Source: Oscillospiraceae bacterium (GTDB lineage: Bacteria; Bacillota; Clostridia; Oscillospirales; Oscillospiraceae). Taken from it: DNA of 64,000 nt. This document shows, one piece after another, positions 11,197 to 58,454 of the stretch (position 1 is the first letter of the stretch; every line of letters starts with the position of its first letter). A program made the translations under genes and the position numbers. The notes beneath the pieces were generated by a model. It had not been told where the DNA came from and searched no databases. It worked only from the letters and a program-made list of their open reading frames with translations. The stretch spans positions 50,668 through 114,667 of the forward strand of contig JAFUNI010000004.1 in NCBI GenBank assembly GCA_017482385.1, given 5' to 3'.

Positions 11197-11210
11197 AGTG
11201 CGTCCCTCCT

Positions 11211-12586: not shown

Positions 12587-12592
12587 TGCGGG

Positions 12593-13399: not shown

Positions 13400-13429
13400 A
13401 GTCGGTCTCCTTTGTGTTTTATGTTCTAT

Positions 13430-13680: not shown

Positions 13681-16017
13681 ATGATAAAAACAGACCGAAC
13701 GGACGAAACTGACCCAGCGCAGCTTCGGGAGGAAGCAAGCCTGACTGTCAATGAACCCTTCCGGGGCAGACAGTTTGCGGCAAACAAAAAGCTCACTGTG
13801 GAAGAAAGAACCCTGTTGGAAAGCACCCTTGCAGAGGAAGAAAGCCTCCTGTTCGCAGTGGTGGGTGATTTGAACATCCGAAACCACTATGCCCGTTCCG
13901 TCCTTGTTGTGACGGAAAAAGGACTGTATGGTTTGGATGCAAGCTTTGAAAACGGTGTCCGCACCCAAAGCTTTGATGGGCTGAAAAGGGCCTTTGTCAA
14001 GCGTTGCTACGGCAATGCATTGCTGATCTTTACGGATGATGCGGATAACCGCACCAATTTCCTGCGCTTTTCTTATAAGGAAGCGCCCGTGTTTGATGCT
14101 GCCGCAACCTTCATTAACCGGGTAGCCTCCGGCAATGACCGGGAAGAGGAGCTGCGTACGATTGAAAGTTCCTTTGAAAAGCAGTTCCGGGTCTGCCCCA
14201 AATGCGGCCGTACCTTGATTCGCCCCGGCGCGCCCTGTATGAATTGCCAGTCCAAGGATAAGGTGATTGGGAAGCTGGGCCGTTACATCCTGCCGTATAA
14301 GGGTATCCTGGCGATTTGCCTGCTGTTGGCAGTGGTAACCACTGCGGTGTCCCTGGTGCCGCCCTATATGACTAAGGTGTTGGTGGACAGTGTGCTGCCT
14401 AACGGGGATAAGAACGGCCTGTTGCAGTGCGTGATCGTATTGCTCGTTGCCCACCTTATCCACTATGGCGTTGGTGCTGTTCGTTCCCATTTTATGCGTG
14501 TCACCGGCGACCGGATCATGACGGATATTCGCAACGATGTGTATGAAAAAGCCCAAAAGCTGCAAATGCGCTTTTATGACCGCACCTCCACTGGCTCGGT
14601 CATCAACCGCATCAGCGGCGACAGCCAGACTATCAACGCCTTTATGATGCGTGTCACCCAGGAAGTGGTGGTGCAGCTGTTTTTGCTTATGGGCATTATC
14701 GTGATTATGTTTGCTATGAACTGGCAGATGACCTTGCTTGCCTTGGTGCCGGTGCCCTTTGTGGTTATGGGTTCCCGGATCTTCGGCAAAAAAGTGAGGC
14801 CCTACTACCGCAGAAGTTGGCGCTATTGGTCGGCAGTTACCAGTATTATGACCGATACCATCCCCGGTATCCGTGTCATTAAGGCCTTTGCAAGAGAGAA
14901 TCGCAGCGTGGACAAATTCAAAAAGGCCAATAATTTCTGGTTGCAAACGGATATCAAAGTCTCCCGGATCGTTACGTTGTTTCCAAATGTGGTGGGCTTT
15001 GCCGTAACCTGCGGCTCTTTGCTCATTTGGAGCGTAGGCGGCAACTGGGTCATTGAAAAGCCGGAGTTTATCTCCGCAGGTCTGCTGGTGTCCTTTATTT
15101 CCTACGCATCCATGTTCTATGGCCCGGTGAATTTCTTTGCCAACTTGAACGATTCCTATCAAAATTTCCTCAATGCCGCTGAGCGGTTGATGGATATCAT
15201 CGATGCCGAGCCGGAAAATGATTTCTCCGGCGGCAAGCACCCGGAGAAGCTCCACGGTAAGATCGAATTCCGGAATGTGAACTTCTCCTTTGACCGGGCG
15301 AAAAAGACCCTGACCAATGTGAATTTTGTCATTGAACCCGGTGATATCGTGGGTATTGTGGGTACTACCGGTGCCGGTAAATCCACTATCATTAACCTGC
15401 TGATGCGTTACTATGACCAGTATGACGGCGAGATCTTGGTGGACGATATCAATATCCGGGACATTGATATGACCTTCTATCGCTCGGAGCTGGGTTATGT
15501 CCAGCAAGAGCCCATGATGTTCCATGAGACCATCTATCAGAACATTGCCTATGGCTGCGAAAATGCCACTGTGGAGGATGTGATCCACGCGGCGGATGTG
15601 GCCAATGCCCATAGCTTTATTGCCCGCCTGCCCGACGGTTACGATACGGTGCTGGGCGAACGGGGCGTAGGCCTGTCCGGCGGCGAACGGCAGCGTTTGT
15701 CCATCGCCCGGGCGGTGCTGAAGAACCCCAGTATTCTGCTCTTTGACGAAGCTACCGCCTCCGTTGACTCGGAAACCGAGCATCAGATCCAGGAGGCCAT
15801 CGAGCAGATGATCCAGGGCAGAACCACCCTGATGATCGCCCACCGCCTGTCCACCCTGCGCAAAGCCAATAAGATCATCGTGGTGGACAAGGGTAAGATC
15901 CTGGAAATGGGTACACCTGAGGAACTGATGGAGAAAAAGGGCAAATATTATAAGCTGATCCAAATCCAAACCATGTCCGCTGAAATTCAGAAGACAAAAG
16001 AGGAAGAGAGGCTGTGA
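13681..16017 (+). CDS. ABC exporter with N-terminal sensor-like region and zinc ribbon (DUF1854-associated)
   Basis: A 778-residue fused ABC transporter half. Residues 1-170 are an extra domain of unknown role, followed by a four-cysteine ribbon CPKCGRTLIRPGAPCMNC near 177-194. Six membrane segments then lie around 205-470, and an ATP-binding domain around 520-760 has Walker A GTTGAGKST, signature LSGGERQRLSIARA and Walker B ILLFDEATAS. Exporters of this shape sit beside DUF1854 genes and have been annotated as cyanophycin-metabolism-associated ABC transporters in proteobacteria; no cyanophycin gene is visible here. Homodimer formation is expected. It overlaps or abuts the DUF1854 gene. A 847-residue antisense frame is a shadow. 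Confidence 0.88.
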   Translation: MIKTDRTDETDPAQLREEASLTVNEPFRGRQFAANKKLTVEERTLLESTLAEEESLLFAVVGDLNIRNHYARSVLVVTEKGLYGLDASFENGVRTQSFDGLKRAFVKRCYGNALLIFTDDADNRTNFLRFSYKEAPVFDAAATFINRVASGNDREEELRTIESSFEKQFRVCPKCGRTLIRPGAPCMNCQSKDKVIGKLGRYILPYKGILAICLLLAVVTTAVSLVPPYMTKVLVDSVLPNGDKNGLLQCVIVLLVAHLIHYGVGAVRSHFMRVTGDRIMTDIRNDVYEKAQKLQMRFYDRTSTGSVINRISGDSQTINAFMMRVTQEVVVQLFLLMGIIVIMFAMNWQMTLLALVPVPFVVMGSRIFGKKVRPYYRRSWRYWSAVTSIMTDTIPGIRVIKAFARENRSVDKFKKANNFWLQTDIKVSRIVTLFPNVVGFAVTCGSLLIWSVGGNWVIEKPEFISAGLLVSFISYASMFYGPVNFFANLNDSYQNFLNAAERLMDIIDAEPENDFSGGKHPEKLHGKIEFRNVNFSFDRAKKTLTNVNFVIEPGDIVGIVGTTGAGKSTIINLLMRYYDQYDGEILVDDINIRDIDMTFYRSELGYVQQEPMMFHETIYQNIAYGCENATVEDVIHAADVANAHSFIARLPDGYDTVLGERGVGLSGGERQRLSIARAVLKNPSILLFDEATASVDSETEHQIQEAIEQMIQGRTTLMIAHRLSTLRKANKIIVVDKGKILEMGTPEELMEKKGKYYKLIQIQTMSAEIQKTKEEERL

Positions 16018-41162: not shown

Positions 41163-42197
41163 ATGAAGATCATTCTGGACGCAATGGGCGGTGACAATGC
41201 CCCCATGGCGCCTGTTATGGGCGCTATTCAGGCAGCCAAGGATTTTGGCGCGGAAATCACATTGATAGGCAGGGGAGAGGAGATCCTGCAGGCCCTCCGG
41301 GAGCAGGGGATCGAGACCTTGCCCAAGGGCATTGAAATGGTCCATGCTGACGAGGTGGTGGATATCCACGAGGATCCTGCTGCCGCTGTACGGAAGAAAA
41401 AGAATTCCTCTATGATGTTGGGCCTTAAGATGCTTGCTGACGGTGAGGGCGACGCCTTCATTTCCGCCGGCTCTACCGGTGCGCTGCTTAGCGGCGCAAC
41501 CTTGATCGTAAAGCGGGTCAAGGGCATTCGCCGGGCAGCAATGGGCCCCGTGATGCCCAATAAGGCCGGCACTAAGACCGTCTTTTTGGACTGCGGCGCA
41601 AACGCCGAGTGTACGCCGGAATTTCTGCTGCAGTTTGGTATTGTAGGTTCTCTGTATGCCAAGAAGTACTTAGGTGTGGAAAACCCCAAGGTGGGTCTTC
41701 TCAACATCGGCGCTGAGGACACCAAGGGCACGCCCTTGCAGAAAGAGGCCTATGCACTTCTGCAGGAGGCAAGCGAAAAGGGTCTTATCAACTTCGTGGG
41801 CAATACCGAGGCCCGCGATGTGCCTTTGGGCGCTGTGGATGTGGTGGTCTGCGACGGATTTTCCGGCAATGTGTTGCTGAAATCCATTGAAGGTACTGCT
41901 ATGTTTATGGGCAGCTTGATGTCCAAAATGTTCAAGAAAAACTTCCTCAGCAAGCTGGCAGCTCTGTTTGTGATGAAGGACATCAAGGCCTTCAAGAAAC
42001 TGCTTGACTACCGTGAGATCGGTGGCACCCAGTTCTTAGGTATCCGCAAGCCTGTTATCAAAGCCCACGGTTCTTCCGACGAGCGGGCTTTCCGCAATGC
42101 GGTACGCCAGGCAATGGACGCAGCCAATGCTGACTTCTCTGCGGAGCTGGAGCAGAGCCTGCAGGCCCTTTCTGATAAGGAGACCGCAGATGATTAA
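41163..42197 (+). CDS. plsX: phosphate acyltransferase PlsX
   Basis: A 344-residue enzyme that makes acyl-phosphate from acyl-ACP for PlsY, starting phospholipid synthesis. MKIILDAMGGDNAP opens the protein; ISAGSTGALL near 100, DCGAN near 143 and NVLLKSIEGTAMFM follow. GAGGTGCGGCT precedes the ATG. The partner fabD/acpP genes usually beside plsX are not here. Confidence 0.97.
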   Translation: MKIILDAMGGDNAPMAPVMGAIQAAKDFGAEITLIGRGEEILQALREQGIETLPKGIEMVHADEVVDIHEDPAAAVRKKKNSSMMLGLKMLADGEGDAFISAGSTGALLSGATLIVKRVKGIRRAAMGPVMPNKAGTKTVFLDCGANAECTPEFLLQFGIVGSLYAKKYLGVENPKVGLLNIGAEDTKGTPLQKEAYALLQEASEKGLINFVGNTEARDVPLGAVDVVVCDGFSGNVLLKSIEGTAMFMGSLMSKMFKKNFLSKLAALFVMKDIKAFKKLLDYREIGGTQFLGIRKPVIKAHGSSDERAFRNAVRQAMDAANADFSAELEQSLQALSDKETADD

Positions 42198-42870
42198 GGA
42201 TTTGGAAACCGCCATCGGCTACCGGTTCAAGAATATTATGCTCCTGCAAAATGCCTTGACCCATTCTTCCTATGCCAATGAGCATTGGCACGACAGCCTG
42301 AAAAGCAATGAACGGCTGGAGTTTTTGGGAGATTCCGTTTTGGGTATGGTGGTTGCGCAGCATTTGTTCCGCAATTTTCCCAATCGCCCGGAGGGCGATC
42401 TCACCCGTATGCGGGCAGATATGGTCTGCGAAACAGCCTTGGCAAAGATTGCCGAGGAGATCAATTTGGGCGAGCACCTGCTTTTGGGAAACGGCGAGGA
42501 ACAAAACGGCGGACGAAGCCGCTGCTCCATTTTGGCCGATGCTGTGGAGTCTGTGATTGCGGCCTGTTTCTTAGACGGCGGTATGCCTGCGGCGGAAAGC
42601 TTTATAAGCTGCTTTGTGCTGTGTAATGTGCCGGGGGATAAGCCTGCCAATTTGGATTATAAAACGGCATTCCAGGAACTGGTGCAGCAGAAAAAGAATC
42701 AGCAGATTGCCTATCGCCTTATAGGGGAAAGCGGTCCGGACCACGATAAGGAGTTTACCGTGGAAGTGACCCTCAACGGTAAAGTTGTGGGACAGGGAAC
42801 CGGTACCAGCAAAAAGCGTGCAGAGCAGAATGCTGCCAAAGAGGCAATGGAAAAACTCTTCCATAAATAA
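42190..42870 (+). CDS. rnc: ribonuclease III
   Basis: A 226-residue double-stranded RNA nuclease. The catalytic signature NERLEFLGDSVLGMVVA is near residue 40, the second acidic site ILADAVESVIAACFLDGG near 116, and a C-terminal dsRNA-binding domain (about 155-225) ends in TGTSKKRAEQNAAKEAMEKL. The ATG overlaps plsX by eight bases and fixes the start. Confidence 0.97.
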   Translation: MIKDLETAIGYRFKNIMLLQNALTHSSYANEHWHDSLKSNERLEFLGDSVLGMVVAQHLFRNFPNRPEGDLTRMRADMVCETALAKIAEEINLGEHLLLGNGEEQNGGRSRCSILADAVESVIAACFLDGGMPAAESFISCFVLCNVPGDKPANLDYKTAFQELVQQKKNQQIAYRLIGESGPDHDKEFTVEVTLNGKVVGQGTGTSKKRAEQNAAKEAMEKLFHK

Positions 42871-42920: not shown

Positions 42921-43304
42921 ATGACGGAAAAAGAGTATGGAAAACTGATAAGCAATATGGCTCCCAAGTCGCCCATCATCAAGGATTGTTTCAATGCCTT
43001 TTGGATCGGTGGACTGATCTGCACAATCGGCCAGCTGATTATGAATGGTTATGCGGCGCTGGGCCTGGACAAAACCGATGCCGGCACAGCCACATCAATG
43101 TCGTTGGTATTTCTTTCTGCCTTGCTGACGGGCCTGAGCCTTTACGATAATATCGCCAAACACGCTGGCGCCGGTACCTTGGTACCCATCACCGGCTTTG
43201 CCAATGCCATTGCCGCCCCCGCCGTGGAATTCAAAACCGATGAGTGTGATATAATAGGACTCAGTCGGAAAGCCTTACAATTCATGGCGAGTATGATGAT
43301 TTAG
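42921..43304 (+). pseudogene. spoVAC: spoVAC, truncated by insertion (5' part)
   Basis: SpoVAC is a membrane channel protein of the Ca-dipicolinate import/release complex of spores. Residues 1-108 agree with the family: MAPKSPIIKDCFNAFWIGGLICTIGQ at the start and ALLTGLSLYDNIAKHAGAGTLVPITGFANAIAAPAVEFKTDE. From residue 109 the reading turns to CDIIGLSRKALQFMASMMI, unlike any SpoVAC, which should continue with a glycine-rich membrane segment to about 150 residues. The usual downstream spoVAD is absent. I infer that a mobile element entered near 43240. A native short isoform is unlikely but not excluded. Confidence 0.85.
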
Positions 43305-43415
43305 TCCAACTATACTTACACGAACAGGCGGTGATATTGACGAGTGTCTTGGAGTATTCGAACTGCTCCCCAATTTTATATTTAGCAACTTTCCAACCTG
43401 CCACACAGGTTCGAG

Positions 43416-43479: not shown

Positions 43480-43692
43480 ATGAACACAGGAACGCTTGTT
43501 AAACGGCGCGGATCAGATTGTATGGATATCCGCTTCGGTTTATATGACTATCATGGAGGGTTACAATGTGGAGAAACATTAGATGTTAAGATCAGTGGTA
43601 AATGGATCCCTACCCGAATTGAACTGGGTGAAGATTGGTATTTAGTAGGTATCGATGTGGACGATTTGGTAGGACTAATCGTCCGAATTTAA
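43480..43692 (+). CDS. DUF5348 family small protein
   Basis: A 70-residue protein with RFGLYDYHGGLQCGETLDV and GKWIPTRIELGEDWYLVGI, which I recognise as DUF5348, a family nearly confined to conjugative elements of Clostridia. It is likely a small beta-rich protein. Its function is unknown; regular presence next to replication-type genes suggests a role in element maintenance. ACGGAGG precedes the ATG, and a terminator follows 11 bases after the stop. Confidence 0.75.
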   Translation: MNTGTLVKRRGSDCMDIRFGLYDYHGGLQCGETLDVKISGKWIPTRIELGEDWYLVGIDVDDLVGLIVRI

Positions 43693-43761: not shown

Positions 43762-44820
43762 ATGAAGTGCCTGCGCAAGTATGAGTGGGTAAAGCTGCCC
43801 CGGAATTATCCGGATATGGGAAAAGGTCTTATGGGTTACTGGGCGAAGTTAGCAGCTCGTGCTGCTTTCCGGAAAGGCAATGCAACCTACTGTGGCCACA
43901 TTAACCCTGTAACCCCAGGTATGTGGGCTGGTGGCATTGTCGGCCTCAAAAGCATTCTTGGGGTTAAGCGCAAGGCTGACGCAATGGATGTTCTGAAGCA
44001 GCTTGCAGCTCTTGGCTATGTAAAGTACTCCCTTGATCCTTTGACTAAGAAGTTGACATATGAGATCACCGATTGGGTGGTTAAGTGTTCCGGTGCTGAA
44101 TGTATGACAGGTACAGTCTATGCCACTGATGGATATGGCTTCCTGTGTATGCCCAGAAGCGTCACGGAGCGTCTCTATGAGCAAAATCGTATTTTTGATG
44201 AGTCAGATGCCTGGCTTGATCTTTGGTGCCATACGACATTTGAAGACCGTGGGAATGCGTTCTCATTCCTTTCGCCGGTTGTTCAGTACGGAAAGTATGG
44301 TGCTGTCTTAACTTTGGAAACCCTGGGACAGCGTTGGGGCTGGGAAAAGACTAAGGTATGGAGATTCTTTAGAAAGCACGGGGATGTCTTCTCTCTGCAC
44401 CGTCTACCCAGCTCTTATGGCTGCCTCATTTTCAATAAGCAATACCCCACAGGAACAGATGTTCAGGTCCCTACTCAGGATGAAATTATGAGTATAGTTA
44501 ACGAAATACTCATAAGCGGCAATTATAAGTACACGGAGAACAGTGAGAATGCCAAGATCAATCATATGGTTGCATGGCACAGTGCGAAGGTCATTGAGGC
44601 TCGACAGGCGGAGTCTGCCCTTTTGGAGGCAGAATGCCGCGTTGCACCTTTTGACCCTATAACACGCACGTATATTTCTCATGGTTGGAACTGTAAGCAT
44701 TGTAGGAACTGTCAGTATGCCTGGGGTGGTGTGTTAAAGGATCCGCAGACTTCGGTTGAAAGTGAAGTTAAGATCCGTGGACCGTGTATCAACAGGTACA
44801 AGGAAACGAAGATATTTTAG
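43762..44820 (+). CDS. winged-helix DNA-binding protein, candidate replication initiator of the element
   Basis: A 352-residue protein. Residues about 60-115 (KSILGVKRKADAMDVLKQLAALGYVKYSLDPLTKKLTYEITDW) look like a winged helix, and residues about 175-225 (GQRWGWEKTKVWRFFRKHGDVF) like a second one. The C-terminus has a four-cysteine cluster (CKHCRNC...C) that may bind zinc. Proteins of this build are found at the start of conjugation modules and are annotated as DnaD-like or replication proteins; the exact role is not established. Its own reading frame contains the repeat boxes at 44472-44532, as in replicons whose origin lies inside rep. AAGGAGG precedes the ATG. Confidence 0.65.
   Translation: MKCLRKYEWVKLPRNYPDMGKGLMGYWAKLAARAAFRKGNATYCGHINPVTPGMWAGGIVGLKSILGVKRKADAMDVLKQLAALGYVKYSLDPLTKKLTYEITDWVVKCSGAECMTGTVYATDGYGFLCMPRSVTERLYEQNRIFDESDAWLDLWCHTTFEDRGNAFSFLSPVVQYGKYGAVLTLETLGQRWGWEKTKVWRFFRKHGDVFSLHRLPSSYGCLIFNKQYPTGTDVQVPTQDEIMSIVNEILISGNYKYTENSENAKINHMVAWHSAKVIEARQAESALLEAECRVAPFDPITRTYISHGWNCKHCRNCQYAWGGVLKDPQTSVESEVKIRGPCINRYKETKIF
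44472..44532. repeat. cluster of inverted and direct 9-base boxes inside the winged-helix gene
   Basis: TACTCA (44472-44477), TTATGAGTA (44486-44494), TACTCATAA (44507-44515) and TTATAAGTAC (44523-44532) lie in tight succession, with a GTTAAC palindrome in the centre. The same three full boxes recur at 54007-54049. This may be a protein-binding site or origin-like iteron set. Confidence 0.7.
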
Positions 44821-46086: not shown

Positions 46087-48570
46087 ATGCTTGACTGGAT
46101 ATTTGAAGGCATCGTCGGCTGGGTAGCAAGCATCGTATCTCAAGCAATGGATGCAGTTTCTGCTCTATTTCTTGAGGCACTTGGTACCGATATGACGGCC
46201 ATGGAGGAGTATTTTCCCTTTGTGACAAAAGCTTTCGACGTGATACAGATTACAGCATGGGCAATCTTGATACTGATTACCGTGTGGCAACTGTTTCGAG
46301 CGTTCGGAGGTCCGATAACAGAAGCGGAAAACCCATGGCATCTATTGATCCGCGGTGCGCTGTTTGCGTTCCTGATCGGCTATGCCAAACCCATATTCCT
46401 AACGTGCTTATCCATAGCAAGAGCACCCTACACAGCACTGATGGATATCACAATGACTGGCTCGGATTTCACCTTTGCCGGTATTGAGCAAGCCCTTTCC
46501 AATGGGTTAACCTCAATCATAGCGGTGGCCAGTGTGGTAGGAATGATACTGATTCTGATCCTGGAGATCGCATTGGGCTGGAACTACTTCAAACTCCTGT
46601 TGGAGACAGTAGAGCGTTACATCGTTGTGGGTGTGATGTGTTACACTTCTCCGCTGGCTTTCTGCATGGGCGCATCCAAAGCAACGAACCCTGTGTTTAA
46701 GTCGTGGTGCCGAATGGTCGGTTCTCAGCTATTGCTGCTGGTTATGAATGTTTGGTTCCTGAGGGGCTTTGCTTCCACCATGGGCCAGTACATTGCCAGC
46801 GGCGGTGCACTATCGACGGGAAAAGGCAGCATCTTCCTGTGGCTGTTCTGCGCCATCGCTTATCTAAAAACAGCCCAGAAGTTTGATAGCTACCTGGGCG
46901 CAATTGGACTGAATGTGGCTCAGACCGGAAGCGGTATGGGCATGGAGCTGCTGATGGCAGCCCGGGTGATCACCGGAGTAGGCGGCGGCATGGCTCGCAG
47001 TGCAGGAAGTATGTTCAGCAGAGCAGGAAGCGCAGCAACCGGAACCGGTGCAGCAGCTGCAGGTTTTGCACAGGGCTTTGCATCCAGATTCAGTCCCAAC
47101 TCCTATGTCCGCGATGCCGTTGTGCAGGGTGGTCAGAGAATGGGCTTTGGCGGTGGTGCCGGCTTTATGGCACGTGCCTTCGGTGGCATAGCCGCAAGAA
47201 ATGGCGCAACGCTGAACAGCAATTCTATTGCTTCTGTGGCAGCTCGCACTCCCAATGCATCCGGCACCATTGCCGGCGACATTGCAGATCGCAGTTTGAG
47301 CAATTATATGCCTCAGATGCAGGGATTCCAGCTGCAGGGCACGCAGATCACTGGCGGACATATCAGTACAACGGCGATCTCTCCCGATGGAAAGCAATCT
47401 GCTGTAGATATGTACAGTGCTGCTCAGTTTGAAAAGCCTGATGTTCCTCACAGTGTTGTTACCGCTTCTGATGGAAGTCAGTGGTACCAGATGGCCAGCG
47501 GCGAAGGCCGTGGAGCCTTTTACGATGCACCTGTCTTTAATGGAATGGGTGCTGATGCACCTCATGGTGTTGATGTGCCTGGTGGAGACGATGTTCCTGT
47601 TTCCTCTGGCGACGCAGGTATGCCTGCCTCTACAGACGGTACGGATACCCATTTGGATCCCGGCGTGGATGGAGCACCTATCAGCGTATCCTCTGAAGTA
47701 CCTCAAATCAGCGGGGATCCCGGTGATATTAATGTTCCCGGAGCAACTGTTGTTGCAGGTGGTCCTGAAGTTATCGGAGACGCTGGCGTTGCAGGAGTCG
47801 CTCTGGGAGAAGATACCCCTGAAGCTCCTATGGTTAGTGGTGCCGTTGTTGGCGGTATTCCTTACCATGGCGAAGAGCCGATGGATGGCTCTGACAATTA
47901 CGATTCTTCCGATGGCGGGTATATGGGAGGTTATTCCGAGGCACCCTTGGTTGCTGCAACCTTCCCCGGTGCGCCTGAAGGTACTGCTCTTCGAACTGTT
48001 GATGACGGCGTCATTGAAGCAAGTACTCCCGATGGTGGAAACACCCTTTGGTACAATAGTGCTTACTTCCAAGAACCTGATGCACCTCACTCTGTTATGC
48101 AGTCTGCCAATGGAGTCGACTGGTATGCTATGCAACAGCACGCAGATGTGCCTCAGTTTGAGGCTGGAGATGCTGCTGAAAGCTACAACCAGGCAACATT
48201 CCAGAACTTCATGCCGGGCTATGGTGAGCAGGTTTACCAGGTCGACAGTTCTCATCGGCAGGACGGCCATTTTGAGGTCCGTAACGAGGATGGCTCTGGT
48301 ACCCGTTTCTATGACACGGCCCAGTATGCAGCACCTCGCGGCGACTACCAGGTCTTTGAAGATTCTCGCGGTAGCCAGTGGTACGCAATCCGTGGTGAAG
48401 CAGCTATCGAGCGAAGACCCGTCTATGAACAAGGGCATGCAGTCTATGATGGTGATAAGCTTCGTACTGAAACAGTGGAAACTGTGCGGTACAGGCAGAC
48501 ACCTGCCAAGTACTCCGCCCCGGAGAAACGCGGTGACATCGAACGCAAGCCCCCGAGAAGAAAACAATAA
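46087..48570 (+). CDS. VirB6/TrbL-like transfer channel protein with repeated C-terminal extension
   Basis: An 827-residue protein. Residues 1-300 have about seven hydrophobic helices, the VirB6/TrbL core of the mating channel (for instance AWAILILITVWQLFRAFGG and SVVGMILILILEIALGWNYF). Residues 300-420 are Gly/Ala-rich. The rest is a long hydrophilic tail holding three copies of a 35-40-residue motif (about 431-471, 647-683, 734-770) with the pattern Y-x-x-A-x-F-x-x-P-D-x-P-H-S-V ... G-x-x-W-Y, separated by an acidic Pro/Val/Asp-rich stretch. The tail is more than half of the protein and is unusual. AGGTGAAAACC precedes the ATG. A 578-residue minus frame is a shadow. Confidence 0.8.
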   Translation: MLDWIFEGIVGWVASIVSQAMDAVSALFLEALGTDMTAMEEYFPFVTKAFDVIQITAWAILILITVWQLFRAFGGPITEAENPWHLLIRGALFAFLIGYAKPIFLTCLSIARAPYTALMDITMTGSDFTFAGIEQALSNGLTSIIAVASVVGMILILILEIALGWNYFKLLLETVERYIVVGVMCYTSPLAFCMGASKATNPVFKSWCRMVGSQLLLLVMNVWFLRGFASTMGQYIASGGALSTGKGSIFLWLFCAIAYLKTAQKFDSYLGAIGLNVAQTGSGMGMELLMAARVITGVGGGMARSAGSMFSRAGSAATGTGAAAAGFAQGFASRFSPNSYVRDAVVQGGQRMGFGGGAGFMARAFGGIAARNGATLNSNSIASVAARTPNASGTIAGDIADRSLSNYMPQMQGFQLQGTQITGGHISTTAISPDGKQSAVDMYSAAQFEKPDVPHSVVTASDGSQWYQMASGEGRGAFYDAPVFNGMGADAPHGVDVPGGDDVPVSSGDAGMPASTDGTDTHLDPGVDGAPISVSSEVPQISGDPGDINVPGATVVAGGPEVIGDAGVAGVALGEDTPEAPMVSGAVVGGIPYHGEEPMDGSDNYDSSDGGYMGGYSEAPLVAATFPGAPEGTALRTVDDGVIEASTPDGGNTLWYNSAYFQEPDAPHSVMQSANGVDWYAMQQHADVPQFEAGDAAESYNQATFQNFMPGYGEQVYQVDSSHRQDGHFEVRNEDGSGTRFYDTAQYAAPRGDYQVFEDSRGSQWYAIRGEAAIERRPVYEQGHAVYDGDKLRTETVETVRYRQTPAKYSAPEKRGDIERKPPRRKQ

Positions 48571-48641
48571 AGAGACGGCCATGATTGTTTTTGCAGTCAT
48601 GGCCGTTTTTCATTTCCCGTGCATCACAGGAGGTGATACCA

Positions 48642-50675
48642 ATGTCCGAGCCGGCCAAGCAGCAAATGGGAGATGGCCGAGATAATTTCGGTCAGGCTGC
48701 TGGAAAAGCCGCTCAAGCAGCGAAACAGGCTACCAAAGAAGCTGCCAAGCAGGCCGCAGCGAAAGGTGCAGAAGCAACAGCAAATGCTGCTGCATCTACC
48801 GTTAAGGCCGGTGTTGAAGGCGGCAAAGCTGTTGCAGAGATTGCAGCCGGTACCGCCTCAGGCGGTCCTTGGGGTGCGATCATTTCTGCTGCATGGGCTA
48901 TGCGGCACACACTTTACAAGATTCTAATCTGCATATGCCTGGTTTTGGTCTTCTTGATCGTGCTGATCGCGTCTCTCCCCAGTATCATCTGGGACTATCT
49001 TATGGGCGGTGCCAATGAGCCTGCCTTCTCCACCACCAACGCTTCCGTTGTTGTGGCTTACGATGAACTGACAGATGATGTCACTGCCATCGTAGACACC
49101 GGATATGACCAAGCTTTGGACTCGGTGGAGGCGATTATCCAGAATGGTGGTTATGACTACGACCTTTCCATGCAGGCTCTTGCCAATTATGCGCAAAGTT
49201 CTGCTGGTTATGATGTAAGTTACATTCTGGCGGCTTACTCAGCATCTCTTCAGCAACAGAACACAACCACAGCGGATATGCTCAGTAAGTTAAGTGGTAC
49301 TACCGGTCAGATGTTTCCAGTAACCTCTGTAGAGAAAGAATTGGAGCGAATTGTCCCCGTGACCTATTCTACTTATAAATCGGTCACAATCACAGTTGTA
49401 ACCTCAGTGCAGGTCAACGGTATTGTAAATGGAGTTACCCGTTATACCTACACCACTGAGCAAAGGACTTACTATTTGCCTGATGAGGTAAAGGAATCTG
49501 AAACAGCTGTTACAGTCCCCAAATATAAGGCTGTGACTGTTTCCGTTCCAACCTACACCAATGGTTCCATTTCCGGGACACGGAGTGCTACCTATTATGA
49601 AGTTGATGGTGAAGAAACATTAGAACCCACTACTGAGATCATCAAGTATGTGGAGTGTACCATTCATCCTTTTGACAATAGCGTGATCGCCAGTGCTTTT
49701 GGCATCGATATGACCGCACAGTATCCGGGTTCGACTCTAACCTATGGAGAGGTAACCCAGAACATGTCTAACTCGCTGAAGATGACCATCTACGGAACAC
49801 TCGGAAGCGGATCTATTGTGCCTCTGACCGATGCAGAGCTAATTGCCTTTGTAAGCCGGCAGAACTGTAATGCCACCCGTAAGCATATCATTACCACTGG
49901 TTTAGCGCTGGTCGGTAAGGTGCCCTATTTCTGGGGCGGCAAAAGTGCGGCCGGTTGGAACGATGAGTGGAATACTCCCAAATTGGTCACAGCTGCAGGC
50001 TCCAGTTCTTCTGGAACGATCCGTCCTTATGGGTTGGATTGCTCCGGTTTTTCGGACTGGACTTACAAGACCGCTTTGGGTGTCAGCCTACAGGCAGGCA
50101 CCGGTGGTCAGTGGGAGAACTCAGAGGCAATTACGGCAGATGAATTGCTTCCCGGAGACCTGGGCTTTCTTATGGAAAGCGATGGCTCAGGATGGAATCA
50201 TGTGTTGATCTTTGCCGGATATTCCGAGGATGGGACTCGCATGTGGGTCCACTCGGCAGGTGGTACAGGTGTGGTGTTCAACTCGCCTAGCTATGAAGGT
50301 TCCCTCAAACTTAGAAGACCCAAGAATGTAGACTTCAATCAGCCTGTGGGATCCACTGCATATGGTGAACCCCTTTACTCACTGCAGGTAAACGTGACCC
50401 ATTACTGCGCCTGCTCCAAGTGCTGTGGCTCCAATGCTGATGGATTTACCGCAAGTGGCAAAGCAGTCCAGCGCGGTATGGTGGCCATGTCCAGCTATTA
50501 TCCTTTCGGCACCCAGATTATGATCAACGGAATCATGTATACCGTTGAGGATCGAGGCGCTTCAGGGATAGAGAATGACATCAGCCGTGTGGACATATTT
50601 GTGCCAGATCACAATGAAGCTTTGCGGTTAGGTCGCTATGATACTACCGCATTTATTTATCGAATAGGAAGGTAA
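48642..50675 (+). CDS. bifunctional cell-wall hydrolase (NlpC/P60 + 3D domain) of the conjugation system
   Basis: A 677-residue VirB1-like protein that would open peptidoglycan for the mating channel. The N-terminal 80 residues are Ala/Lys-rich amphipathic helices (AAKQATKEAAKQAAAKGAE), followed by a single membrane helix (about 92-112). A linker/beta region follows. The C40 NlpC/P60 domain is at about 420-565 with Cys near 467 (GLDCSGFSDW) and His near 517 (GWNHVLIFAGY). A 3D (RlpA-like) domain is at about 583-677 (VTHYCACSKCCG, GFTASGKAV, VEDRGASG, VDIFVPDHNEA). The pairing of two wall-active folds is notable. AGGAGGTG precedes the ATG at 48642. Confidence 0.9.
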   Translation: MSEPAKQQMGDGRDNFGQAAGKAAQAAKQATKEAAKQAAAKGAEATANAAASTVKAGVEGGKAVAEIAAGTASGGPWGAIISAAWAMRHTLYKILICICLVLVFLIVLIASLPSIIWDYLMGGANEPAFSTTNASVVVAYDELTDDVTAIVDTGYDQALDSVEAIIQNGGYDYDLSMQALANYAQSSAGYDVSYILAAYSASLQQQNTTTADMLSKLSGTTGQMFPVTSVEKELERIVPVTYSTYKSVTITVVTSVQVNGIVNGVTRYTYTTEQRTYYLPDEVKESETAVTVPKYKAVTVSVPTYTNGSISGTRSATYYEVDGEETLEPTTEIIKYVECTIHPFDNSVIASAFGIDMTAQYPGSTLTYGEVTQNMSNSLKMTIYGTLGSGSIVPLTDAELIAFVSRQNCNATRKHIITTGLALVGKVPYFWGGKSAAGWNDEWNTPKLVTAAGSSSSGTIRPYGLDCSGFSDWTYKTALGVSLQAGTGGQWENSEAITADELLPGDLGFLMESDGSGWNHVLIFAGYSEDGTRMWVHSAGGTGVVFNSPSYEGSLKLRRPKNVDFNQPVGSTAYGEPLYSLQVNVTHYCACSKCCGSNADGFTASGKAVQRGMVAMSSYYPFGTQIMINGIMYTVEDRGASGIENDISRVDIFVPDHNEALRLGRYDTTAFIYRIGR

Positions 50676-51148: not shown

Positions 51149-51517
51149 ATGGAAGAGAAGGAATTCAGCAATGTGTACGCCATTCCGGCTAACTACACCG
51201 ATTCTGGAAAACTCCTCGGTGGTATGGTAGAAACCCGTAATGCTATTGAGGCTGTTTTTCTTGTAATTCTGGTGGGTTATCCTGAATTGATGTGGATTCC
51301 AATGTCTACTACGATCCGCATCGTTGTCATGACGATCACCCTTATTCCGCTGGCTGTGATTGCTGTAATGGGCATTGATGGAGACTCGTTGATCCAATAC
51401 CTTGGACATATCGTCTCCTTTTGGTTTGGCAGGCGGAAACTACACTTCAGGAGGATAGGTTATAAGTATGACCCCAAACAGCTCAAAAACCCGGGCAAAA
51501 AAGGCAAAAAGAAGTAA
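51149..51517 (+). CDS. PrgI family protein (VirB3-like)
   Basis: A 122-residue membrane protein with two adjacent helices (about residues 38-58 and 62-82) and a basic C-terminus (KLHFRRIGYKYDPKQLKNPGKKGKKK). PrgI/VirB3 proteins partner VirB4 and anchor it to the membrane. The gene overlaps virB4 by 50 bases, an unusually long overlap that could couple the two. The sequence NVYAIPANYTDSGKLLGGMVETRN is typical of PrgI N-termini. Confidence 0.85.
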   Translation: MEEKEFSNVYAIPANYTDSGKLLGGMVETRNAIEAVFLVILVGYPELMWIPMSTTIRIVVMTITLIPLAVIAVMGIDGDSLIQYLGHIVSFWFGRRKLHFRRIGYKYDPKQLKNPGKKGKKK

Positions 51518-53993
51518 GCCGGAAAAGCTTGAGTTTGTTCAGCCTTTCCTCCCGGTCAAGGATATCCAAAACGGCATTGTGGAGACCACTGATGGCCGCT
51601 ACGTAAAGATCCTTGAGATCGAACCCATTAACTTTATGCTCCGATCTTCTGAGGAGCAGTACAACATCCTATCTTCATTTGCCAGCTGGCTGAAGATCTC
51701 GCCTATGCGCCTGCAGTTCAAGTCTATCACTCGAAAGGCTGATTCCGACAAGCACATTGCTATGATGCGTGAGGAGATGGCTAACGAGGATAACGAAGAA
51801 TGTAAGGCTTTGAGTGAGGACTATATTCGGTTGATAAAGGATGTGGGATCCAGAGAAGCGCTGACCCGGCGCTTCTTTTTGATTTTCCAGTATGAGGCCA
51901 TCGGCAGGAACGAGTCTGATGACTATTCCAAGATCTACAGTATGTTGATCAGTGCAGAACAAAATGCCCGCGCCTACTTTATGCAGTGCGGAAACAACAT
52001 CCTGCAGCCGAAGAACCCGGATGAAGCTACGGCCGAGATCCTTTATATGTTCTTCAATCGCAGATCCTGTGTAGACGAACCTTTTACTGACCGGGTAAAT
52101 CGCGTGATCGTAGATGCTATGGCGGCCAAGGGTAAAGTGATCGGTCTTGATCCGATCCCCAATATCCCTGTTCGTCATTTCATCGCGCCTCGCGGTTTGG
52201 ATCTGACGCACCATAATTACATCATTATGGATGGTCGTTACTATTGCTTCTTGTATATCAAGGGCGATGGTTATCCCAACAGGGTTCGCGGTGGCTGGAT
52301 GTCCAGTCTGATCAATGCCGGCGAAGGTATTGACATCGATGTACATCTGCATCGTGAAAATCGCAGCAAGACTATCGATAAGGTAGCACAGCGCATCCGT
52401 CTGAATCGCACGAAGCTCAAGAGTATGCACGATACCAGTACCGACTATGAGGAACTTACGAACTCCATCCAGGCCGGCTACTACATTAAAAACGGTATTG
52501 CCAACCACAACGAGGACCTGTTCTACATGTCTGTTTTCGTGACGGTGTCGGCAAGAACATACGATGAGCTGCTGTGGCGTAAGCAGCAGATGATCGATAT
52601 GCTCAAGTCGATGGATATGTACCTCAGTGAATGTCGCTTCCAACAGGAAGAAGCACTCCGTTCGGTAATGCCTTTCCTGCAGATCAGTCCCAAGCTGGTG
52701 AAAAAGACCCAGCGCAATGTACTGACCAGTGGAGCCGCATCTACCTATATGTTCACCAGTTTTGAAATGTCCGATGACTCCGGCGTTCTGCTGGGTGTCA
52801 ACCGGCATAATAACTCCCTCTGCATTGTTGACCTCTTCAACACGAAGATCAACAAGAATGCGAACCTTACCATGTGCGGTACTTCCGGTGCCGGCAAGAC
52901 CTTCACCCTCCAGCTTTTGGCTTTGCGTATGCGAATGCGTGGCATCCAGTGCTATATCATTGCCCCTATCAAGGGTCACGAGTTCAAGCGTGCTTGCAGC
53001 AAAATTGGCGGTGAGTTCATCAAAATCGCTCCCGGCTCTCCTCACTGCATCAATGTGATGGAGATCCGACACACCATTTCTCCGGAGATGGAGCTGATCG
53101 ATGAGGTCGATTACAACGATATGGACTCGATGTTGGCCAGAAAGATTCAGCAACTGATGATCTTTTTCAGCCTGCTGATTCCGGATATGACCAACGAAGA
53201 GGAGCAGATGTTGGATGAAGCCCTTATCAAGACTTATAACGATTTTGGGATTACTCACGATAACAACTCGCTGTATGTGGATGCCAATGTATACCCTCCA
53301 AAGCTTAAGAAGATGCCTATCCTGGGTGACCTTCATAAGCACTTAATGGAGAATCCCATGACTGCCCGTGTGGCTGCCATTGTCAGCCGTTTCGTTACCG
53401 GTTCTGCTCAGAGTTTTAACCGTCAGACAAATGTGGATCTTACGAACAAGTACATTGTTCTGGATCTGTCTGAACTGAAAGGAAAACTCCTGCCGGTGGG
53501 CATGATGATTGCCTTGGACTATGTTTGGGATAACATCAAGGCAGACCGCACCAAAAAGAAAGCCATTATGATCGACGAGATCTGGCAGCTCATCGGTGCT
53601 TCCTCCAATAGGATGGCCGCTGAGTTCTGTTTGGAAATCTTCAAGGTCATTCGTGGCTACGGTGGCGCAGCAATTGCGGCTACCCAGGACCTCAGCGACT
53701 TCTTCAGTCTGGACGACGGCAAGTATGGACGAGCCATCATCAACAACTCCAAGAACAAGATCATCTTGAATCTGGAGCAGGACGAAGCCCAGTATGTCAA
53801 AGATGTCCTGAAACTTACCCATACGGAGGTCCGTTCCATTACCCAGTTTGAACGTGGTGAAGCTTTGATTCACAGCAATAACAACAAGGTTCCTGTGGTG
53901 ATTAAAGCTTCTGCTCAGGAAAAAGAAATGATTACCACTGACCGTGCTGAACTGGAGGCCATTCTTCGGAAGCGGCAGAAGGAACAAACCTAA
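51468..53993 (+). CDS. virB4: VirB4/TraE-family conjugation ATPase
   Basis: An 841-residue ATPase that drives assembly of the transfer channel. An N-terminal domain (about 1-400) is followed by the AAA+ core: Walker A CGTSGAGKTFTLQ near residue 470, Walker B KKAIMIDEIWQLIG near 700, and a glutamine sensor region AAIAATQDLSDFFSL near 742. The length is normal. The start overlaps prgI and lies after GGAGG; later ATGs would lose no known domain but have no better site. A 555-residue antisense frame is a shadow. Confidence 0.95.
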   Translation: MTPNSSKTRAKKAKRSKPEKLEFVQPFLPVKDIQNGIVETTDGRYVKILEIEPINFMLRSSEEQYNILSSFASWLKISPMRLQFKSITRKADSDKHIAMMREEMANEDNEECKALSEDYIRLIKDVGSREALTRRFFLIFQYEAIGRNESDDYSKIYSMLISAEQNARAYFMQCGNNILQPKNPDEATAEILYMFFNRRSCVDEPFTDRVNRVIVDAMAAKGKVIGLDPIPNIPVRHFIAPRGLDLTHHNYIIMDGRYYCFLYIKGDGYPNRVRGGWMSSLINAGEGIDIDVHLHRENRSKTIDKVAQRIRLNRTKLKSMHDTSTDYEELTNSIQAGYYIKNGIANHNEDLFYMSVFVTVSARTYDELLWRKQQMIDMLKSMDMYLSECRFQQEEALRSVMPFLQISPKLVKKTQRNVLTSGAASTYMFTSFEMSDDSGVLLGVNRHNNSLCIVDLFNTKINKNANLTMCGTSGAGKTFTLQLLALRMRMRGIQCYIIAPIKGHEFKRACSKIGGEFIKIAPGSPHCINVMEIRHTISPEMELIDEVDYNDMDSMLARKIQQLMIFFSLLIPDMTNEEEQMLDEALIKTYNDFGITHDNNSLYVDANVYPPKLKKMPILGDLHKHLMENPMTARVAAIVSRFVTGSAQSFNRQTNVDLTNKYIVLDLSELKGKLLPVGMMIALDYVWDNIKADRTKKKAIMIDEIWQLIGASSNRMAAEFCLEIFKVIRGYGGAAIAATQDLSDFFSLDDGKYGRAIINNSKNKIILNLEQDEAQYVKDVLKLTHTEVRSITQFERGEALIHSNNNKVPVVIKASAQEKEMITTDRAELEAILRKRQKEQT

Positions 53994-55447: not shown

Positions 55448-56596
55448 ATGATACGCATCCAACAGGACACACTTGCATACGAGTTGCTTACTATTCTTGC
55501 CTATGTTGGCGAATTTCCTTTTGCTTCCATCTATCTTCTCGGCAATAAAGATGTGTGGCGCAAACTCGTATCCAAGCTATCCCAGGAGCAGACCTATCGT
55601 GTTCTTAACTATCCCGACAAGATTACTGGACGACTACTTAATCTGTCCGGTGAGAAGAAAGCCCGGACGATTCGCCTCAGCCAAAAGGGTGCATATGTTC
55701 TCTCTTTGGTTAATCCGGATGCTGCAAAATACTATGCGCGTGTCTTTGGAAATGCGCACCTATCTAGTGCAGAGGAAAGGATAGATCGAGCGCATCGTCT
55801 GGCTGAATCTGTGGCCTTCTTCCGGTTGGTCGGGGTCGAGACTTGTCCTTTTATACTTCCAACGCTACAGCTCAAGTTGTTCCAAAGGACTGTTCCAAAT
55901 GAACCTGCCTTTTACACCAGCCACGAGCTGAAGCATTTCGGTGGTGATTCGGTCAGTAAGGTTGCCTTCTCCCGAATTACCGGAATGCTGTTTTCTTCCG
56001 GTGGGAATTATGCGGTATATAACAGCCGCGATTACAGGATGGAGTGGAATGGGCGTGGTGAGAGCAAGGTCTTGGCACATCTTCAAGGAGTTGCCCGGAT
56101 GAATGCCGGTCCGGAAGAAATGGATTCGGCAATTATGTTGGCCAGCGATTACAGCATCGCCCAACTAACACTGGCCTTCCTCGGAAATGTAAACCGGGTG
56201 CAAAACCGGTTTGACAAGATCTACACCCACCTGCATTTTATCCCAATGGATTCGTATGGTGCAAGGCTCAGTAAAATACTAATGCTCCCAGACTGGAAAC
56301 AGATTCTGCTGGAGCTGCTATTTGACGATGATGAGCTTGCCGGTATGGGAGCTACCTTCGGCTACGATGCCATTCGAGACGGGACCTATGTGCTTTCATT
56401 CCTGGATAGTGACATCTTTCGCCTAAATGCATTTTGGGAAACCGTTCGGGTTCAAAAGTATAGAGCTTCGGTGATCTGCTTTCCGGAGCAGGTGCCATTC
56501 CTGCGAAGCTTCCTAAGGAACAAGGTTGGTCTTCAGACGGTAACGATGGATATGGTAGAAAACGCAATTATGGAAGGATGTGATTCCAATGAATGA
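55448..56596 (+). CDS. hypothetical protein with N-terminal winged helix (replication-relaxation-like)
   Basis: A 382-residue cytoplasmic protein. Residues 5-90 (LAYELLTILAYVGEFPFASIYLL ... RVLNYPDKITGRLLNLSGEKKARTIRLSQKGAYVLSL) have winged-helix character of the kind seen in replication-relaxation proteins. The rest is alpha/beta with no motif I know. It overlaps virD4 by eight bases, and the virD4 ATG lies within its last codons, so the two are coupled. The position before the coupling protein hints at a relaxosome accessory role; the evidence is context and one domain. Confidence 0.55.
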   Translation: MIRIQQDTLAYELLTILAYVGEFPFASIYLLGNKDVWRKLVSKLSQEQTYRVLNYPDKITGRLLNLSGEKKARTIRLSQKGAYVLSLVNPDAAKYYARVFGNAHLSSAEERIDRAHRLAESVAFFRLVGVETCPFILPTLQLKLFQRTVPNEPAFYTSHELKHFGGDSVSKVAFSRITGMLFSSGGNYAVYNSRDYRMEWNGRGESKVLAHLQGVARMNAGPEEMDSAIMLASDYSIAQLTLAFLGNVNRVQNRFDKIYTHLHFIPMDSYGARLSKILMLPDWKQILLELLFDDDELAGMGATFGYDAIRDGTYVLSFLDSDIFRLNAFWETVRVQKYRASVICFPEQVPFLRSFLRNKVGLQTVTMDMVENAIMEGCDSNE

Positions 56597-58454
56597 GAAA
56601 ACCCGCAGGGTGGCGATCGTAGTTGCTGTCATACTGGGCTGTGCTGCTTTGCTTTATTTAGGTGGCCTACTGGGCCAGCTATTTACCAACTACAACACCT
56701 GGCTCTCTGCCGGTGGTATGACAGGTAAGGCTCAGATGCAATCCCCAGACTGGAATCCGCTAATCTGCATTACCAGTGCCTTCACCGGGAACGGGCTGAA
56801 GGCATTGCTTCTCATCGTAGGTGTCGGCGCAGCGATCTTCATCTACATCAAAGTCCATGATAAGTTCTCTGGTATTTCCTACGATGAGCGCGGTTTTACC
56901 AAGAGCAAACATGGAACCTACGGTACAGCCGACTGGATGACAGAGAAAGAAATGAAATCAGTCTTGGAGGTGAGCACCCCCGAGAAAGCAACGGGCATGA
57001 TCCTGGGCGAACGAAAGGGACAGCTCATCTGCTTGCCTGAAGATACCAGACTCAATCGGCACACAGCTGTGTTTGGCGCTTCCGGTACCATGAAATCCCG
57101 CGCTGTTGTACGCAATGCATTATTCTCGGCCATCCGCAGGGGCGAGTCCGTACTCATTTCGGATCCAAAGTCCGAGATGTACAACGAGACCTCGGAACTG
57201 TTCCGTAAAAATGGGTATGAGGTAAAAGTCCTGAACCTGGTGGACCCGCTGCACAGCGACTCGTGGAACTGTATGTCCGACCTGGGAGACGACACCTTGA
57301 TGGCCCAGATGTTGACCAATGTTATCATTGGCAACACCAGCTCCGGCAAGGGCGACCACTTTTGGGATAACGGCGAGGCCAACCTCTTAAAAGGCTTGGT
57401 TCTCTGTGTGCAGTTAGATCCGACGATTCAACAAAAAGATAAGAACCTGACGAAGGTGTATGAGATTCTCACCGGAAATAATTTAATGGGCACCATTAAC
57501 GGAGTCCTTGCTAAGACGGAATATCATGCGGCCAAGGCATCCTTTAGTCTCTTTGCCCAGTCCAGCGAGACGGTTCGGCAAGGTATTATCCTGGGTCTCG
57601 GCACCCGTTTGCAGGTGCTTCAAGACCAGGCTGTTAAGCAACTGGTTTCTCGCTCCGATATCGACCTCACCGCACCAGGCAAACGCAAATGCGCCTATTA
57701 CATCATTCTCAGCGATCAAGAAACATCGATGGCATTTATATCCTCGCTGTTCTTCTCATTCTTGTTTATTAAGCTGACTCGCTTTGCGGATAATTCGCCC
57801 GGTGGAAAATGTCTTGTTCCGGTCAATATGATCTTGGATGAGTTCAACAACATTGGACGAATCGGTGGCGCCCCAGACGGATCTGATTTCTGCAGATCTC
57901 TCAGCGTTATCCGATCTCGTGATATCAGGGTAATGATCGCAGTTCAGAGCTTAGGCCAGTTACAAAACCGGTATCCCAATAACCTCTGGGCTGAAATCGT
58001 AGGCAACTGTGATATTCAGCTGATGCTGGGATGTACCGATGATGTAACTGCAGAATATATCTCAGAGCGCAGCGGCGAAATGAGCATCCAGGTAGATTCT
58101 ACGATGACCGTAAAGAAGACGGTAGCACTGGCTCAGGTGATACCCCAGTACCGTGAGACCCAAGGTCAAGGCAGGCGCAAACTCCTAACCGCAGATGAAG
58201 TTCTTCGTCTTCCTCATGAGGAGATGCTGGTTATTATTCGCGGTCAGAATATGCTGAAGCTTAAAAAGTTTGATTACACACGGCACCCATTGTCCAAGGA
58301 ACTGGTGCCCACGACAATTCAATCTTACATTCCAAGCCGACAGTACAGCGTACTTCAGACTGAGTTCGTTAAACCTGTTACTCCTGAGGAACCGAGGAAG
58401 AAAAAGTTTGAAAAGCTGAGCCCGACGCAAGTCGTTCAGAATACCAACAAATAA
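56589..58454 (+). CDS. virD4: VirD4/TraG-family coupling protein
   Basis: A 621-residue hexameric ATPase that brings the relaxase-bound DNA to the channel. Two N-terminal membrane helices (about 10-32 and 73-93) are followed by the ATPase domain. The P-loop reads FGASGTMKSRAV (near residue 160), with Met where many have Gly or Ala; Walker B is VNMILDEFNNIG near 415, and QSLGQLQNRYPNNLW is a typical C-terminal block. The ATG at 56589 lies inside the end of the previous gene. The family match is clear. Confidence 0.94.
   Translation: MNEKTRRVAIVVAVILGCAALLYLGGLLGQLFTNYNTWLSAGGMTGKAQMQSPDWNPLICITSAFTGNGLKALLLIVGVGAAIFIYIKVHDKFSGISYDERGFTKSKHGTYGTADWMTEKEMKSVLEVSTPEKATGMILGERKGQLICLPEDTRLNRHTAVFGASGTMKSRAVVRNALFSAIRRGESVLISDPKSEMYNETSELFRKNGYEVKVLNLVDPLHSDSWNCMSDLGDDTLMAQMLTNVIIGNTSSGKGDHFWDNGEANLLKGLVLCVQLDPTIQQKDKNLTKVYEILTGNNLMGTINGVLAKTEYHAAKASFSLFAQSSETVRQGIILGLGTRLQVLQDQAVKQLVSRSDIDLTAPGKRKCAYYIILSDQETSMAFISSLFFSFLFIKLTRFADNSPGGKCLVPVNMILDEFNNIGRIGGAPDGSDFCRSLSVIRSRDIRVMIAVQSLGQLQNRYPNNLWAEIVGNCDIQLMLGCTDDVTAEYISERSGEMSIQVDSTMTVKKTVALAQVIPQYRETQGQGRRKLLTADEVLRLPHEEMLVIIRGQNMLKLKKFDYTRHPLSKELVPTTIQSYIPSRQYSVLQTEFVKPVTPEEPRKKKFEKLSPTQVVQNTNK

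Follow-up and report, generated by a model that had tools for sequence, protein, structure and literature searches.

The spoVAC gene of an Oscillospiraceae bacterium is split by a putative integrative conjugative element with three serine recombinases, and spoVAC is followed by cassette arrays in relatives

Results

The window (the whole stretch of DNA analyzed, 64,000 nt, G000:C4:50668–114667) ends where contig C4 stops, at window position 64000. Genome assembly G000 is estimated to be 95% complete and consists of 35 contigs. All window features described here are on the plus strand. Upstream of spoVAC, the host flank has an open reading frame at 42097..42870 (start codon uncertain) that we take, from its sequence, to be an rnc-like gene encoding ribonuclease III; among 65 loci with the 5′ part of spoVAC, 13 have a gene that matches it. 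The short SpoVAC frame that follows (42921..43304) encodes 127 amino acids. SpoVAC residues 22–125 match positions 1–103 of the 117 positions of PF03862 (SpoVAC_SpoVAEB; E 3e-34), but likeness to SpoVAC ends after residue 106 (VEFKT, window position 43238). The abrupt break described in the original prediction is therefore present, though after residue 106 and not 108. Codons 1–106 plus a GA dinucleotide make up the 5′ part of spoVAC (42921..43240; PF03862), which an empty-site alignment with 33 relatives identifies as the left arm (B) of attB, and codons 107–127 of the short frame are core and element DNA. The left junction reads ...GAATTCAAAACC-GA-TGAGTGTGATATAATAGGAC. Its GA (43239..43240) is the crossover core of attL, is common to the left and right junctions, and is present in all seven left junctions read, among which the tail of the frame after GA varies.

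The original prediction called for the remainder of spoVAC to exist beyond the element. It is present and precise, on another contig of the same genome (C7:15074–15193), directly after three serine recombinases, and the right junction reads ...CTAACTTGACACAAGCA-GA-GGGCTTCATC (core at C7:15074). Joining the two flanks in silico at GA yields an intact SpoVAC frame of 145 amino acids that is 70–86% identical to 29 SpoVACs of the same genus and 56–62% identical to four from elsewhere in the order. With both halves found and both junctions precise, the claim that a conjugative element interrupts spoVAC is upheld.

A search of G000 with PF03862 returned three matches: the 5′ part, a full-length copy on C7, and the 3′ part (profile positions 84–117, C7:15068–15169). 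Adjacency identifies the full-length copy, located directly after spoVAD, as a spoVAEb-type gene, which leaves the split gene as the only spoVAC found in G000. We rejected a second spoVAC that could rescue function, as full-length matches are only of the SpoVAEb type, judged by span and, in G000, also by the neighboring spoVAD. The spoVAD–spoVAEb pair is intact as a separate locus (C7:305564–306894); spoVAD is thus missing from the split locus, as had been noted, but not from the genome. SpoVAD and SpoIVA are both present in G000, indicating that the lineage keeps spore genes.

Interruption of spoVAC is not the common state in the genus. A full-length match of the SpoVAC type (span of 345–351 nt) is listed in 48 of 60 same-genus genomes. 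The remaining 12 comprise G036, which has a related element, G038 and G039, where contig ends interrupt the gene, and nine genomes without a listed SpoVAC-type match. Away from contig ends, none of the 22 relatives that were searched again has the same short SpoVAC (5′ part only) in a locus lacking an element, although nine of the 22 list no SpoVAC-type match. Ten genomes are carriers (G000, G036, G099, G153, and G174–G179). With SpoVAC and SpoVAEb types told apart by span, no full-length match of the SpoVAC type is listed in any of the ten; the 3′ part is found in all ten and the 5′ part in seven. Precise excision in silico restores an in-frame gene in all seven elements for which both junctions are available.

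The original prediction that all DNA to the right of the break is element-type is borne out, as 43241–64000 encodes TrbL-like, NlpC/P60, VirB4-like, and VirD4 proteins and is colinear with a complete 80.9-kb relative. The left arm of the element (P′, 43239..43310; ∼70 bases) is conserved in all seven elements aligned and includes an extended −10 sequence, TGATATAAT (43247..43255). The stretch around GAGTATGATGATTTAGTCCAA (43286–43308), 3′ of this −10, is also conserved in the seven aligned elements and is possibly a leader or a regulator site. Next are a DUF5348 protein (43480..43692; PF17295, E 1.8e-23) and a 352-amino-acid protein without a Pfam match (43762..44820), which is the first gene of the conserved left, or transfer, module and is 60% identical to the gene in the same position in the complete relative, G175. 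Comparisons of the other transfer genes to G175 give 60% identity for the TrbL-like transfer protein (46087..48570; PF19597, E 1.7e-5, under the curated cut-off), 65% for an NlpC/P60 cell-wall hydrolase (48585..50675; PF00877, E 9.4e-12), 81% for a VirB4/TraG-like conjugation ATPase (51468..53993; PF19044, E 8.2e-21), and 66% for a VirD4-type coupling protein (56580..58454; PF02534, E 1.2e-50). The contig end cuts an element-borne surface protein with SpaA and thioester domains (61001..64000; PF17802 and PF08341). A search of the assembly for a PF03432 relaxase gave no match; the middle of the element is absent from C4 and C7. The element is a putative integrative conjugative element (ICE); transfer to a recipient would be indicated only indirectly, by the presence of the same right end in another spoVAC context (contig L204, below).

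The element runs past the end of the window, and its right end is C7:1–15075. In this part, at locus L007, three large serine recombinases are encoded in tandem (9983–11632, 11635–13338, and 13328–14935). All are full-length frames with Resolvase and Recombinase domains, and only the first two have a zinc ribbon. About 35.8 kb of the window element are in hand, with a C4–C7 gap of unknown size. In G175 (Lachnospiraceae bacterium MGB1), both spoVAC halves are on one contig and the element is complete, measuring 80,939 bp from core to core with GA at both ends. Colinearity with the C4 part extends over the first 22 kb of the G175 element and with the C7 part over its last 13 kb, and its recombinases are 57–70% identical to those of the window element. 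About 45 kb of the G175 element have no match on C4 or C7; the counterpart in the window element is either on other contigs or absent.

Joining of the element ends is predicted to form a promoter. TGn-TATAAT is present in all seven left arms read, and the right arms of four elements have a TTGACA whose first base is 12 bases before GA. When the ends are joined, a −35 with six of six consensus positions is placed 17 bp from TGn-TATAAT in G000, G036, G099, and G178. Matches are lower in the joined ends of G179 (five of six, at 18 bp), G175 (four of six), and G153 (three of six). The best −35 at integrated left ends, in contrast, has at most two of six positions. Because the conserved genes of the transfer module are on the plus strand, the joined promoter would read into them. 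A search of IMG/VR with the joined-end pattern gave three matches, none with TATAAT, and neither an excised circle nor an empty site was seen. Separately, CTTGACA occurs shortly 3′ of the recombinase in 15 distant loci that are not in spoVAC (L124–L133, L135–L137, L144, and L145), roughly at the expected position of the element end (ends not mapped). Promoters formed at circle junctions may thus be widespread among these recombinases.

spoVAC is a recurrent target. A search of 136 same-genus genomes for the third recombinase gave matches in four (E ≤ 1e-100), and in all four, the 3′ end of spoVAC directly follows it. We used the four genus recombinases as queries in a wider scan of a contig set with one genome per species (84,980 species). 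Of the 41 loci recovered, nine with at least 51% identity run into spoVAC within ∼210 bp and 32 with at most 42% identity do not. Among the best 80 of 232 recombinase relatives in IMG/VR, three run into spoVAC (99%, 67%, and 37% identity). Hence, every locus with a third recombinase at least 51% identical runs into the 3′ end of spoVAC (11 of 11; nine genome and two IMG/VR loci), as do at least 12 of the 121 loci overall (41 genome loci plus the best 80 of 232 from IMG/VR), a lower bound because 18 of the 121 had fewer than 250 bases downstream. In a tree of 33 recombinases chosen from 122 rows, the twelve rows labeled as spoVAC group together with support of 100/99. IMG/VR contig L207, labeled as other in the tree, has a recombinase that is 37% identical, falls outside this clade, and is directly before a spoVAC 3′ end. 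Targeting of spoVAC is therefore not confined to the clade, and a second recombinase lineage may target the gene.

Movement of the element by site-specific recombination is indicated most clearly by IMG/VR contig L204 (IMGVR_UViG_3300018495_004215), where identity drops exactly at GA. This contig has the same right end: 1984 of 2000 bases (99.2%) preceding the core are identical, including 149 of the 150 nearest to it. Past the core, identity falls to 94 of 120 bases (78%) and, beyond that, to 62% of aligned bases. A P′ pattern, which misses the P′ of the window element itself, had two matches in 394 genomes of the order, neither of them in spoVAC.

Spare spoVAC 3′ ends are arranged in arrays in relatives. 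A number of the 22 relatives searched again have an intact spoVAC followed by one to several fragments with the 3′ end only, and in nearly all cases read, the fragment is preceded by the right arm of the element and not by spoVAC sequence. Among 136 genus genomes, 25 contain the right half-site pattern GTCCTANNTTGACANNAGCAGAG, with 32 occurrences in all versus 0 for a reversed-pattern control, and the pattern is found in six of 394 sampled genomes of the order, five of them outside the genus. Across the genus and order searches, 34 of 38 distinct half-sites continue into a spoVAC 3′ end (E < 1e-3); the four that do not are in G117, G146, G150, and G029. At the level of genomes, 22 of the 25 in the genus, G000 itself included, have a half-site beside a spoVAC 3′ end. 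In IMG/VR, the pattern matched only an already known contig.

In total, 43 units were delimited, spread over 24 loci and 23 genomes; for some, the limits are decayed 3′ ends, and G041 is a doubtful member of the set. The median size between half-sites is 1127 bp. A single frame of at least 60 amino acids is present in 32 of the 43 units, antisense to spoVAC in 30 of these, and no unit matches the three recombinases (0 of 43; E 1e-3). In 18 of 43 units, the 3′ end is followed by one kind of terminator hairpin, compared to none of 18 array-free loci (a near match in L011 was not counted). Seven of 20 cassette proteins from relatives have no match in a Pfam scan; matches of the others include Fic, DMP19-like, GH43, GH2, M28 peptidase, and a YitT-type membrane protein, as well as parts of a type I restriction-modification set, an FGGY kinase, and one IS200-like transposase. 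A scan of ten cassette proteins for defense genes gave Fic or type I matches in six. One spoVAC cassette of 8.4 kb in G033 (L182:2146–10094) has both a Fic-type protein (PADLOC profile) and a type I restriction-modification set.

The window element itself is part of such an arrangement. On C7, behind the element, are two further right half-sites (at 17222 and, with mismatches, at 18685) with decayed 3′ ends; the half-sites enclose an ornithine-cyclodeaminase-like gene with a neighbor that is presumably LysR-like, and a phosphoesterase. L204 has the same layout with other cargo (half-sites at 4727, 6091, and 7045). The element thus heads an array in both near-identical copies. In three genomes (G000, G134, and G135), spare spoVAC 3′ ends are broken near the same codon by an insert of ∼110 bases (L007:17242–17470, L177:12153–12381, and L178:6239–6468), the translated sequence of which is similar in G000 and G135. 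G041 has two different intact spoVAC genes, on contigs C36 and C37 (L079 and L080), and C37 is near-identical to G028 from the spoVAC stop codon onward; the assembly is likely contaminated or chimeric. The 99.7% cassette identity between G028 and G041 was rejected as evidence because of the two spoVAC copies and because near-identity of C37 to G028 extends beyond the cassette.

Discussion

We consider it probable that an ICE with a triplet of serine recombinases is inserted at GA in codon 107 of spoVAC, that its excision restores the gene and generates a promoter in the circle, and that the same system built the arrays behind spoVAC. Both junctions, the empty site in silico, the recurrence of the target, and the same right end in a second spoVAC context are shown by the sequences. 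Excision is predicted to join the −35 of the right end to the −10 of the left end such that a promoter reads into the transfer genes in the circle only. This would be a simple reason for transfer genes to be silent until excision.

Integration is predicted to affect spores. SpoVAC and SpoVAEb form a membrane complex for dipicolinic acid (DPA), according to excerpts of PMC13059800. In C. difficile, spoVAC mutants produce spores that are stable but free of DPA and sensitive to heat, whereas in B. subtilis, the mutant spores are unstable (PMC4959285, in excerpts). Cells with the integrated element would lack SpoVAC and make DPA-poor spores. Given that no full-length SpoVAC-type match is listed in carriers and that the C. 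difficile mutant spores have no DPA, poorer spores are expected until the element leaves, when excision would restore the only spoVAC of the host.

G000 is a draft and the element spans a contig break, and an artefact of assembly or binning could have brought together unrelated contigs that merely resemble halves of one gene. This is highly improbable and was rejected because the complete relative has both halves, and the whole element, on one contig; in addition, seven left junctions have the same P′, and the parts on C4 and C7 are colinear with the two ends of the G175 element. Alternatively, the element could be stuck, with spoVAC permanently lost in the lineage. The lack of a SpoVAC-type full-length match in all carriers and of a PF03432 match in the assembly is consistent with a dead end, and loss may be tolerated, as spoVAC mutants of C. 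difficile still sporulate (PMC4959285, in excerpts). Yet the three recombinases are full length with the expected domains, both gene halves are still in frame in seven of seven elements, and a right end that is 99.2% identical, on contig L204 next to a different spoVAC, is suggestive of recent movement. We therefore regard permanent loss as improbable.

The original prediction went further and proposed a switch like that of skin-type elements, in which sporulation-controlled excision restores spoVAC when needed. Excision that is precise and in frame in all seven elements, and recombinase frames that are full length with resolvase and recombinase domains, would suit such a switch. There is also a precedent in gin, a non-phage element that interrupts gerE in B. 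cereus, encodes three serine recombinases, and excises at mid-sporulation (PMC5595907, in excerpts). However, spoVAC belongs to the sigma-G regulon of the forespore in C. difficile (PMC3789822, in excerpts). Excision in the forespore would be inherited, unlike the rebuilding of a mother-cell gene, and the element would be lost from the lineage unless reintegrated. Carriers are also few (4 of 136 same-genus genomes) and the element has conjugation genes. The results lend no support to a sporulation-controlled switch, and we judge it quite improbable. An ICE that leaves spoVAC intact upon excision is the reading we favor.

The same recombination system is proposed to have built the cassette arrays behind spoVAC in relatives. 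An element that excises between attL and a distal right half-site would take neighboring cassettes along in its circle. Following integration elsewhere, ordinary excision would leave behind the cassettes and the spoVAC 3′ end of the donor, and the recipient's own 3′ end would be displaced. Only ordinary attL × attR and attB × attP reactions, and no cassette recombinase, would be needed. The model predicts that the 5′ and 3′ parts of spoVAC are decoupled in genomes with arrays. We assigned the sets for comparison, with G041 counted as array-free by contig C36. For the 22 array genomes, identities of 5′ and 3′ parts show no correlation (Mantel rho −0.03, p 0.57); for the 18 array-free genomes, they are correlated (rho 0.31, p 0.009). 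Two 5′ blocks compared to each other gave rho of 0.33 (p 0.006) in array genomes and 0.22 (p 0.07) in array-free genomes. When the 5′ block was cut to the length of the 3′ part, the array-free set also had no correlation (rho 0.09, p 0.23). Decoupling is thus seen in one comparison of a weak test with noisy controls.

A pair of genomes, G028 and G116, allows for a closer look at boundaries. Their cassette bodies are 96% identical and their spoVAC 5′ parts are 69% identical, but the shared body starts after the stop codon of spoVAC. The rebuilt 3′ end, from core to stop, is 83% identical, while the model predicts about 96%; the predicted boundary is therefore not observed on the left side. To the right, the 60 bases preceding GA are 88% identical, with a full match in the 23 closest to it, and identity after GA is 73%, placing the boundary within ∼40 bases of GA. 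Gene conversion among spare 3′ ends could explain this pattern. More broadly, spare 3′ ends could be products of duplication, or of homologous recombination, at a conserved gene end without involvement of the recombinase. The left cassette boundary of G028 and G116, at the stop codon or terminator and not at GA, speaks for this, as does the potential for recombination between the spare 3′ ends, which are direct repeats. We nonetheless find it unlikely, since spare ends start at GA and are preceded by the right half-site of the element in 34 of 38 sites, and right-arm subtypes are, by inspection, common to elements and cassettes.

If cassettes do move by the recombinases, a tentative extension, toward which we lean less than not, is an integron-like system. 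The spoVAC 5′ part would be the platform, cassettes would each bring a 3′ end and a half-site, and the serine-triplet ICE would be the vehicle that chooses among successive right half-sites. If this holds, these gut bacteria would have a patchwork DPA-channel protein, and the array would record which donors came before. A gene-cassette platform of Clostridia that uses sites of large serine recombinases in place of an integron integrase would be indicated. Independent of arrays, the recurrence of spoVAC means that a sporulation gene is now among the recurrent targets of serine-triplet ICEs in gut bacteria, and the proposed effect on spores links conjugation to spore quality in a manner that can be tested.

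Skin elements in sigK are prophage-like and interrupt a mother-cell gene, from which excision is terminal. They are similar to the spoVAC element in that an excisable element splits a sporulation gene (PMC5025042, in excerpts). The gin element in gerE of Bacillus cereus ATCC10987 is of non-phage type, has three serine recombinases, and restores a sporulation gene by excision, as is also predicted for the spoVAC element. It differs in its size of 28.6 kb, its lack of conjugation genes, and its location in a mother-cell gene; its recombinases are only 22–26% alike, and girAB are dispensable for the rearrangement. Moreover, regulated excision of gin is proven, while excision of the spoVAC element is predicted in silico only (for gin, excerpts of PMC5595907).

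The closest likeness of the integration module is to streptococcal ICEs with triplet serine integrases, which are inserted in mutT, hsdM, and traG (Ambroset et al. 2016; PMC4701971, in excerpts). Both have three adjacent serine recombinases in the same orientation at one end, a disrupted target, and a conjugation module. Direct repeats of the streptococcal elements are 2–8 bp, and here the repeat is the 2-bp GA. Unlike those ICEs, the hosts here are Oscillospiraceae, Lachnospiraceae, and other Clostridia, the target is spoVAC, which is not among the targets named in those excerpts, and the elements are linked to cassette arrays. The main text of a catalog of large serine recombinases (PMC10083194) has no word beginning with spoV, and a survey of gut elements names spoVA genes as cargo and not as a target in the part available (PMC6907783). 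Our literature search, with subscription papers and preprints mostly outside its scope and several sources covered in part, found no report of spoVAC as the target of an element or of such arrays.

The arrays can be compared to two other systems. In SCC, and in the Enterococcus cassette chromosome (PMC6222049, in excerpts), large serine recombinases also insert cassettes with variable cargo at a conserved gene. The 3′ end of the target is regenerated in the arrays of relatives, which have an intact spoVAC and spare ends, but not by the window element, which leaves a short SpoVAC. In contrast to SCC-type elements, the units here include ∼40 codons of spoVAC, and the three recombinases have no match in any of the 43. 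Accretion and cis-mobilization of CIMEs likewise involve units that lack a recombinase and have attachment sites in tandem with a mobilizing ICE (PMC5704250, in excerpts). Here, however, the units are mostly of a single gene, are up to five complete in a row per contig, and have the target gene rebuilt.

Likeness to integrons is architectural only. Tn4451 has a serine recombinase with a 2-bp core, and Lyras and Rood are said to have described in 2000 a promoter for tnpX at its circle junction. The creation of a promoter by joined ends and the use of a serine recombinase with a 2-bp core are thus features that the spoVAC element would have in common with Tn4451. The difference is that the promoter is that of tnpX in Tn4451, whereas here it would serve the transfer module, and the recombinases are encoded at the opposite end of the element. 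The integration module is of the known triplet-integrase ICE type, and within the literature covered, the spoVAC target and the spoVAC cassette arrays appear to be new.
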